This document shows, piece after piece, positions 41,144 through 44,178 of a DNA stretch of 64,000 bases (positions are counted from its first letter, which is position 1; every line of letters begins with the position of its first letter). Below the pieces are notes generated by a model that saw nothing but the letters and a program-made list of their open reading frames with translations, was not told the origin of the DNA and searched no databases. The position numbers and the translations under genes were made by a program. Source of the DNA: Rhodospirillaceae bacterium (GTDB taxonomy: Bacteria > Pseudomonadota > Alphaproteobacteria > Rhodospirillales > Rhodospirillaceae); contig SCTM01000096.1 of the NCBI GenBank assembly GCA_004297485.1, positions 1 to 64,000 of the forward strand, given 5' to 3'.

Positions 41144-42253
41144 ATGGTTGAAAAACCACTCGATTACCGGGATGCGGGGGTTGACTACGCCAAGATTGAC
41201 CCGCTCAAGATCGCCGCCCAGCGCGCCGCCAGGGACACCGCCGCCAACCTGCTCCGCACGCCCTACCGGGAAGTGGAAGCCTCGCGCGGGGAATCGGCCT
41301 ATGTGGTCGATATGGGCGAGTTCCTGCTGGCGTCCATTACCGAATGCTTGGGCACCAAGGTGCTGATCGCCGACGCCATGCGGGCCGTGACCGGCAAGAC
41401 CTATTTCGACGCCATCGCCCAGGACACTCTTGCGATGGCTATTAACGACATCATCACCGTGGGTGCCACGCCCATTTCCGTACAGGCCTATTGGGCGGCG
41501 GGAAGCAGCGCGTGGTTCGACGACGCGGCCCGTGCGCACGATCTGGTCGAAGGCTGGAAAGCCGCCTGTAATAAATGTGGTGTCGCGTGGGGCGGCGGCG
41601 AGACGCCCAGCCTGGGCGGCGTCGTCCATGCCGACACCATCGACCTGGCGGCGTCGTGCATCGGCGTGGTGCGTCCCAAGGAGCGTCTGACCATCGCCGA
41701 CAAACTTAAGCCCGGCGATGCCATCGTATTGCTGGCGGCGAGCGGCATCCACGCCAACGGCGTTTCGTTGGCACGAAAAGTGGCCGAGGAATTGCCGGAC
41801 GGCTACGCCACCAAGATTTCCGATGGCCGCCTTTACGGCGATGCGCTCCTTGACCCGACGGTTCTGTATTCGCCGGTGACCGAAGCGCTGTTCGCCGCCG
41901 GGATCGTTCCCCATTACTGCGCCAACATCACCGGCCATGGCTGGCGCAAAGTCATGCGCCATCCGCGCGCGCTCACATACCGGTTCAATAAGATTCCCGC
42001 CGTGCCGCCGGTTCTGGCGTTCATCCAGAAAGCCGCGCGCATGAGCGACGCGGATGCTTATGGGACATTCAACATGGGCGCGGGCTTCGCCCTGTTCGTG
42101 GCGGCGAAGGATGCGGAGAGGACGGTGAGCGTCGCCAGAGGGGCGGGCGTCGATGCGCTCGTCGCGGGCATTGTGGAAGCCGGCGCGAAGCAAGTGGTGA
42201 TCGAACCCCTGGGCGTCACCTTCACCGACGCGGACATGCATTTGAGGGCGTAG
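41144..42253 (+). CDS. purM: Phosphoribosylformylglycinamidine cyclo-ligase
   Basis: YRDAGVDYAKID; GGGETPSLGGVVHADTIDLAASCIGVV; ITGHGWRKVMRHPRALTYRF. Confidence 0.93.
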   Translation: MVEKPLDYRDAGVDYAKIDPLKIAAQRAARDTAANLLRTPYREVEASRGESAYVVDMGEFLLASITECLGTKVLIADAMRAVTGKTYFDAIAQDTLAMAINDIITVGATPISVQAYWAAGSSAWFDDAARAHDLVEGWKAACNKCGVAWGGGETPSLGGVVHADTIDLAASCIGVVRPKERLTIADKLKPGDAIVLLAASGIHANGVSLARKVAEELPDGYATKISDGRLYGDALLDPTVLYSPVTEALFAAGIVPHYCANITGHGWRKVMRHPRALTYRFNKIPAVPPVLAFIQKAARMSDADAYGTFNMGAGFALFVAAKDAERTVSVARGAGVDALVAGIVEAGAKQVVIEPLGVTFTDADMHLRA

Positions 42254-42258
42254 GTCCA

Positions 42259-42351
42259 CCGTCATCCTGGGGCCAAGCCCCAGGACCCATTCCTCAAGGC
42301 GCGTCAATGTTTAACGCTCCAGACCCCACCAACAAACGCCAGGGTGACGGA
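42259..42351. repeat. REP-like palindromic element (GTCATCCTGGGGCCAAGCCCCAGGA type)
   Basis: CCTGGGG-CCAAG-CCCCAGG hairpin, closing GGGTGACGG. Confidence 0.7.
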
Positions 42352-42359
42352 TAAGAATT

Positions 42360-42491
42360 TTAAATCTTATCCAAATCGATCTCGCCCGTAAAAATCCGCT
42401 TGAGCGTTTCCACGTAGAGCGTTTGCTCCCGCGCCTGAACGCATTCAGCCAAGGATTCAGGCAGGTCACACTTAAAACAACTGTAGCTCAT
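42360..42491 (-). pseudogene. Second copy of purN 3' end (43-aa ORF MSYSCFKCDLPESLAECVQAREQTLYVETLKRIFTGEIDLDKI)
   Basis: Last 26 residues identical to resident PurN C-terminus; 38 bp identical run at 42391-42428 vs 43579-43616. Confidence 0.85.
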
Positions 42492-42804
42492 GCGCTCCTG
42501 GCAGGAGAATCAAATCAGTGGAAGGCCTCAGGGTCAGAACAACCTATTTGGATTCAGTGACCCTTCAACTGGAAGACCTTTTGATTACTCGTCGCCCGAT
42601 GCATCGATCGGTGCCTTTCGGAATTCACAGTGGTACCGGCGCCTACAAAATAAGACAGACGCGGACAGCTTCGTAAACGAATTACTCGATACCGAGGATG
42701 GAAAGAAAAAGTATAATTCCATCAATCCAAACTACGGCTCATTTGTCCACGGCATGATCAACACAATCGATCGCCGTCTGCCGATCTGGGAGCAATCGCG
42801 TTGA
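42490..42804 (+). CDS. Uncharacterised accessory ORF, possibly a truncated C-terminal domain
   Basis: Open frame coupled to the next ORF (TTGA overlap); no clear ribosome-binding site for the ATG; no recognised domain. Confidence 0.45.
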   Translation: MRSWQENQISGRPQGQNNLFGFSDPSTGRPFDYSSPDASIGAFRNSQWYRRLQNKTDADSFVNELLDTEDGKKKYNSINPNYGSFVHGMINTIDRRLPIWEQSR

Positions 42805-43451
42805 AAATTATCGCTTTCGTTCTTGTTTGCCTCGCGACCACCCTAGCTTGGTCGCAGGATCAACAGGGGAACGCGCTTGGTCGACAACAACCAAGCGCTC
42901 ATTGGGTGACGTTTGATACGCCTCGTGATGATGCAACTTACGGCGCGAGAATAACGCTCCCGCCTGGCTACCACCTGTGCGGCCTTGCAGGTAGCGATTC
43001 AAGCCTTGAATGGTATTACGTAATGCTCGACCCTGGGATACGGTGTGAACGTTTACGTTTGCCGGCGGGCAATGAGCGAATGCCCGATTTCGTTCTCATC
43101 GGACACAATCCCGACACTGCCTTTCAATACAAAGCGACCGATGACTATGTCAAAGCGGAACCGTTTTATTGCCATGGCATGAGCTACGATTATAAGATGC
43201 CGCACTCAATTTCGAATGCCCCCACATCGATCATAGCCGCAGGAAAGATTCTAGCCGGGCTGGACACCGTGGCCTGCATACGGCAGGACGACGAGAAAGG
43301 GCGTTACTCCAAAGCATTTCTCGCCTACAGGCCTAAGCCGGACGATACCGGGCACGGATACGAGATTGCAGCGTATGTTCATACAAAGAACAAACGCCAA
43401 GCCGACAAGCTCGTTGAACAGATCGCAAAATCTTTCAAGCTTCTCGATTGA
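42801..43451 (+). CDS. Uncharacterised secreted Cys-containing protein
   Basis: Signal peptide MKIIAFVLVCLATTLAWSQ (TTG start), several Cys, followed by a terminator. Confidence 0.65.
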   Translation: MKIIAFVLVCLATTLAWSQDQQGNALGRQQPSAHWVTFDTPRDDATYGARITLPPGYHLCGLAGSDSSLEWYYVMLDPGIRCERLRLPAGNERMPDFVLIGHNPDTAFQYKATDDYVKAEPFYCHGMSYDYKMPHSISNAPTSIIAAGKILAGLDTVACIRQDDEKGRYSKAFLAYRPKPDDTGHGYEIAAYVHTKNKRQADKLVEQIAKSFKLLD

Positions 43452-43491
43452 AGCACTTTGGCCGCCAACGTCTATAGTCATCAGCTCATAC

Positions 43492-43520
43492 GCCCCCGGC
43501 TCCGGCCGGGGGCTTTTTTT
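43492..43520 (+). terminator. Intrinsic terminator
   Basis: GCCCCCGGC-TCCG-GCCGGGGGC-TTTTTTT. Confidence 0.85.
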
Positions 43521-43547
43521 GTTGCCAGCACATATGCGCCGGACAAT

Positions 43548-44168
43548 CTAAATCTTATCCAGATCTATCTCGCCGGTGAAAATCCGCTTGAGCGTTTCCA
43601 CGTAGAGCGTTTGCTCGCGTGCCTGGACTCGCGCGGCCAAAGTCTCCGGCGTGTCGCCAGGTTGCACCGGCACGCGGTCCTGCGCCACGATCGGGCCATG
43701 GTCATAGACATCGTCAACGAGGTGGATGGTGACGCCGGTTTCCTTGTCGCCGCTGGCGAGCACGGCCTCGTGGACGCGCTTGCCGTACATGCCCTGGCCG
43801 CCGAACTTGGGCAGCAGCGCCGGATGGACGTTGAGAATGCGCCGCTTGAATACGCCGAGGGTCTCGGGCCCCAGCTTGCGCATGTAGCCCGCGAGGATCA
43901 CCAGATCGGCGCCCGCCATGGACAAGGTCGAGGCGATGGTGGCGTCGGCCTCGGCGTCGGAGCCCGCCGTGGTCGCGCTGATGTGCGAAGCCGGAATCTT
44001 GTTGGCCTTGGCCCAGGCCATGGCCGCGCTGTCGCCGTTGTTGCTGATGAGCAGCACCGCCTGGGCACGGATTTGCGCCTGCTTACACGCCGCCACAATG
44101 GCACGCATGTTGGTGCCGTTGTGGGAGGCGAGGAAAGCCAGACTGGGACGCGCTGGAAACCGTGCCAT
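43548..44168 (-). CDS. purN: Phosphoribosylglycinamide formyltransferase
   Basis: LASHNGTNMRAIVAAC; ILNVHPALLPKFGGQGMYGKRVHEAVLASGDKETGVTIHLVD. Confidence 0.95.
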   Translation of the reverse strand: MARFPARPSLAFLASHNGTNMRAIVAACKQAQIRAQAVLLISNNGDSAAMAWAKANKIPASHISATTAGSDAEADATIASTLSMAGADLVILAGYMRKLGPETLGVFKRRILNVHPALLPKFGGQGMYGKRVHEAVLASGDKETGVTIHLVDDVYDHGPIVAQDRVPVQPGDTPETLAARVQAREQTLYVETLKRIFTGEIDLDKI

Positions 44169-44178
44169 CGCGTCTTTC

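Follow-up and report, generated by a model that had tools for sequence, protein, structure and literature searches.

A second purN 3' end beside a probable toxin-immunity fragment in a Rhodospirillaceae genome, and gene-tail copies at related module loci

In the Rhodospirillaceae genome studied here (GenBank assembly GCA_004297485.1), purM (+) and purN (-) are convergent, with 1.3 kb between them, and a second purN 3' end lies in this space. The window is the whole stretch of DNA analysed, 64,000 nucleotides of contig SCTM01000096.1 (positions 1 to 64,000), and coordinates refer to it. A previous sequence-only reading had described two non-core open reading frames (ORFs) and a terminator at the purN 3' end, bracketed by two purN tails that differed only by silent changes. 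We distinguish the following parts of the junction:

41144 to 42253, + strand: purM of a divergent type, the convergent left neighbour (Pfam AIRS and AIRS_C; synteny in relatives)
42254 to 42359, no strand: short spacer with an imperfect inverted repeat (sequence and fold)
42360 to 42467, - strand: displaced purN 3' tail copy, 36 codons including the stop (repeat and codon comparison)
42391 to 42428, - strand: 38-bp block identical to 43579-43616, putative crossover region (codon comparison)
42480 to 42804, + strand: 5'-truncated, frame-shifted glucosaminidase remnant (left edge approximate; the ORF at 42490-42804 is its C-terminal part)
42801 to 43451, + strand: intact gene of a secreted 216-aa protein, candidate immunity protein and glucosaminidase partner (pairing in relatives; predicted helix)
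43492 to 43521, no strand: terminator hairpin and T-run, 3' of the 216-aa gene (fold)
43548 to 43578, - strand: purN codons past the core, and stop, presumably imported with the insert (silent-only differences from the displaced tail)
43579 to 43616, - strand: right copy of the 38-bp block (codon comparison)
43548 to 44171, - strand: intact purN, 207 aa (TIGR00639, 170 bits, above cut-off)

The terminator proposed by the sequence-only reading was found again, and of its two ORFs the 216-aa one is intact, whereas the other proved to be a broken remnant. The window purM scores 179 bits against TIGR00878, under the cut-off of 236; in some relatives, though not in all, this divergent type stands at the locus in place of ordinary purM (∼30% identical). 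The spacer to its right occupies the position of an EamA-type transporter gene in congeners, and a palindrome with an 8-bp stem, GGATAAGAATTTTAAATCTTATCC, straddles the end of the displaced tail (42336-42375). The exact position of the insert's left joint could not be placed.

The tail copy (108 bp) lies 1188 bp from the intact purN end in direct orientation, and self-comparison returned the two as a direct repeat (42361-42467 and 43549-43655, 83% identity over 107 bp, spacing 1188). A codon-by-codon comparison bore out what had been reported of it: the last 26 PurN residues are identical, the eight base differences in this part are all silent, TAA/TAG included, and the 38-bp run has no differences. 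If changes were random, the probability that all eight would be silent is ∼2e-5, and that of 12 or more consecutive unchanged codons out of 27 is 0.026. Homology to purN extends for about nine further codons upstream of the 26-codon tail, here with amino-acid changes (PESLAEC vs PETLAAR, then CDL vs GDT), so that amino-acid differences affect 5 of 10 upstream codons but 0 of 27 downstream (Fisher 0.0006). Along the tail copy, differing sites number 14/39 in the 5' part, 0/37 in the core and 5/32 in the 3' part. The changes 3' of the core are silent, and therefore both tails formerly served a working purN; the suggestion that the fragment had diverged within a functional gene is thus upheld, with both tails under PurN constraint before the event. 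By tblastn, the genome holds a single complete purN copy plus the tail, and otherwise only paralogues of PurN.

Comparison with relatives indicates that the purM-purN junction tolerates change and that, of the genomes sampled, only this one has the tail copy. The two genes abut in two genomes of another genus (G007 and G026), an EamA-type transporter gene separates them in both congeners (G001 and G002) as well as in G036 and G020, and a few relatives have other genes between them; relatives lacking the insert, which the sequence-only reading had proposed to look for, were thus found. The congeners' transporter gene is absent from the genome under study, both at the junction and elsewhere. Among 75 family genomes, no relative has a second purN tail or the same arrangement, and no donor locus was found with purN beside the glucosaminidase/216-aa module.

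What the insert carries can be read from its relatives. The ORF at 42490-42804 encodes 104 aa that correspond to the C-terminal end of a protein resembling glucosaminidases; its match to PF01832 is weak, and it is 43-64% identical to the C-termini of longer proteins, those of G087 and G092 having a length of ∼300-340 aa. The frame breaks just upstream of it, and the other frame still reads LAGESN. The intact 216-aa protein has a predicted N-terminal hydrophobic helix, and its gene adjoins a glucosaminidase gene as a pair in four other genomes (G080, G087, G090 and G092); a scan of a genome collection for this family returned four loci, all in genomes already sampled. Neither insert protein matched phages, PHROGs or NCBIfam, the 216-aa protein had no match in plasmids, and PADLOC gave no match for effectors or partners. 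The 216-aa protein was modelled with a mean pLDDT of 82. A PsbP/Mog1/LpqN-like fold (a loose structural match only) and the immunity protein Tsi3 (far down the match list, E 0.07) were considered for it and set aside as too weak, and the effector model (pLDDT 45) was too poor to be used. On the pairing in relatives, the 216-aa protein may be the immunity protein of the glucosaminidase, persisting as an orphan.

These genes belong to a larger family of modules, in which effectors have one common N-terminus (no Pfam match), differing peptidoglycan-hydrolase C-termini and small, often secreted neighbours. Under a single N-terminal profile we found glucosaminidase, M23, M74 (below cut-off) and Hydrolase_2 ends. 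Three proteins of an array in G087 share the N-terminus (GDTE-AHLTPGE...) and end in a glucosaminidase, M23 or M74-like domain, and small, mostly secreted-looking proteins adjoin them; one further member, in the genome under study, ends in Hydrolase_2. The N-terminus occurs in 18 of the 75 family genomes, and eight times in the genome under study. Apart from the 216-aa family, which accompanies glucosaminidases in the four genomes named above, partner genes were recognised by eye. In the modules examined, G+C content is 51-56%, below the 58-64% of the surrounding DNA. Judged by its anatomy, which is that of polymorphic toxin-immunity modules, the family would have toxin and neutralising activities, and the insert is probably a fragment of a cell-wall-attacking toxin/immunity gene pair.

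Some arrangements within the family deserve separate mention. Between grxD and rpsD in L062 (5000-11500) lie three peptidoglycan-hydrolase effectors with nearly identical N-termini and different C-termini, and in L151 (5500-13800, G003) small genes separate three members, of which two have a common 88% identical stretch. L156, a whole contig of 1845 bp (G000:C193), carries an effector and a partner gene with 120-bp identical ends within the effector N-terminus, and may be circular, the unit of a tandem array or a loop created by the assembly.

We then looked for direct repeats by self-comparison of stretches with modules (45, counting the window) and of control stretches without effectors (33). 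Six module loci other than the window are bracketed by copies of a neighbouring gene's 3' end or of the sequence immediately beyond it:

L155, own genome: tRNA-Pro copy, 95.5% identity; extends from the anticodon loop to 65 bp beyond the tRNA
L154, own genome: tRNA-Phe copy, degenerate
L062: grxD tail copy, 91%
L162: tail copy of an MMPL exporter gene, 95%
L145: fliX tail copy, 81%
L142: copy of the region downstream of tRNA-Leu, 77.5%

With the window left out, such scars were present at 6 of 44 module loci, only a minority, and at 0 of 33 controls; the one-sided P of 0.03 is a modest figure because the controls were unmatched and all came from one junction. Repeats at L141 (a GDPD gene), L146, L150, L157 and L159 were not counted, being paralogues, repeats of effectors or upstream regions, or ambiguous, and those seen in L151, L152, L158 and L172 were also left out of the count. 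The source genes of the tail copies, purN included, are unrelated, and tRNA genes are involved in three of the six other cases. In L155, L154, L062 and L162 the homology extends beyond the gene end. Two joints lie in microhomology: in L062 the tail meets a truncated effector within a common 9-bp GTGCGCGAG, and in L162 an mlaC tail forms the end of the insert and meets the MMPL tail in a short overlap rich in GC, as would be expected if the added fragment spanned one gene into another. The sequence-only reading is extended in two respects: the cargo is a module of toxin-immunity type, and gene-tail scars recur at other loci of the family.

Taken together, we slightly favour the reading (probability about 0.55) that a toxin-immunity fragment was added at the purN 3' end, displacing the resident tail, through recombination in the 38-bp block. 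The incoming DNA would have carried a purN 3' end together with the terminator, the gene of the 216-aa protein and a portion of the hydrolase gene, and would have recombined with the resident purN within the identical block. The resident gene would thereby have acquired the imported tail as its end, with the old tail now lying beyond the insert, joined to what is left of the hydrolase gene. We infer that the crossover was by homologous recombination and that an end was joined at microhomology (Campbell-like, or by homology-facilitated illegitimate recombination), and the freer 5' part of the tail copy may have belonged to the incoming side. Silent-only differences 3' of the core together with amino-acid changes 5' of it support insertion, as do the gene pairing in four other genomes, the microhomology joints and the low G+C of the modules; the gene-tail copies at module loci outside the window weigh most. 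Against it stand the lack of a donor locus among the 75 genomes, the imprecise left joint of the insert and the small share of module loci with tail copies. If the event were one-ended and the left copy entirely resident sequence, decay should be even along that copy, and the distribution of differing sites fits this less well. Of the previous proposal, insertion with displacement of a tail holds, but a longer island that was later reduced is not demonstrable.

It is also possible, though rather unlikely, that the purN 3' end served as an att site, at which a tyrosine recombinase restored purN and displaced the tail, and that all but the module was subsequently lost. This main rival would account for an identical core amid diverged flanks, a silent-only side that restores the gene and a more freely changed 5' side. 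Direct repeats of the target gene's 3' end lie at both ends in the window and at tRNA-Pro in L155; the own genome has modules at tRNA-Pro, with the copy starting in the anticodon loop, and at tRNA-Phe, and the share of tRNA genes among the other scars would suit an integrase. However, the integrase-bearing element that had been suggested did not appear: PF00589 is absent from the window and from the module stretches examined of five genomes (G000, G001, G087, G082 and G089, the own genome among them). The variety of unrelated targets, the copied homology that often runs beyond the gene end and the two microhomology joints also speak against it. A more general idea appears doubtful to us: that toxin-immunity cassettes of 1-2.5 kb without an integrase of their own repeatedly enter tRNA and protein gene 3' ends by one common process, perhaps through a recombinase supplied in trans, and that with every arrival the host gene receives a new end while its former end stays beside the cassette.

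It is improbable that the purN end was duplicated locally long ago and that the insert later split this duplication, with silent drift. Each tail has the other as its nearest relative among sampled sequences (19 differences, vs 25-36 to congeners), a placement that had been named in advance as telling against insertion; it does not decide for duplication, since PurN identity to the congeners is no more than 76-79%. As had been argued before, a decaying non-coding copy is not expected to show eight silent changes out of eight; nor would duplication explain an unchanged 38-bp block beside so divergent a 5' part, or the same pattern at other module loci. Misjoined strain variants of a metagenome bin are a very improbable source even in an assembly of 356 contigs, since the tails differ by at least 10% with only 38 bp identical, and the arrangement is found again in other genomes and on two further contigs of this one.

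Copies of gene tails thus offer a readable record of the addition of toxin-immunity modules at core genes, in bacteria without a detected type VI secretion system (T6SS) and mostly without VirB4, and could be used to search for arrivals of modules and for orphan immunity genes. They also draw attention to a family of peptidoglycan-hydrolase effectors with an N-terminus that has no Pfam match. With regard to delivery, neither the T6SS (VipB in 0 of the 18 genomes with the N-terminus, vs 10 of 57 others) nor the T4SS (VirB4, PF03135, in 2 of the 18 only, G079 and G082) could be supported as a route.

Several known systems resemble parts of this picture. Phage 21 and e14 in icd replace the 3' end of the gene by a synonymously diverged version and displace the original end. 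The purN locus is similar in that the 3' end of a protein gene is replaced, with silent divergence and a displaced old end, but differs in that integrase and phage genes are absent here and many different genes are targets. Orphan CDI/Rhs modules, as described (PMC4927057, PMC3967940), likewise have a constant N-terminus, a variable toxin C-terminus and truncated orphans beside immunity genes, whereas the N-terminal family here has no Pfam match and the repeats are tails of neighbouring genes. In Vibrio cholerae, T6SS clusters accrete effector-immunity modules, for which homology-facilitated illegitimate recombination has been proposed (Kirchberger et al. 2017, PMC5361080). Unlike those arrays, the modules here are scattered over the chromosome, and VipB has no match in the 18 genomes. 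As in those arrays, a new module lies beside a homologous anchor where older immunity genes or gene fragments are displaced; here, however, it is an unrelated gene, a core or a tRNA gene, whose 3' end acts as the anchor.
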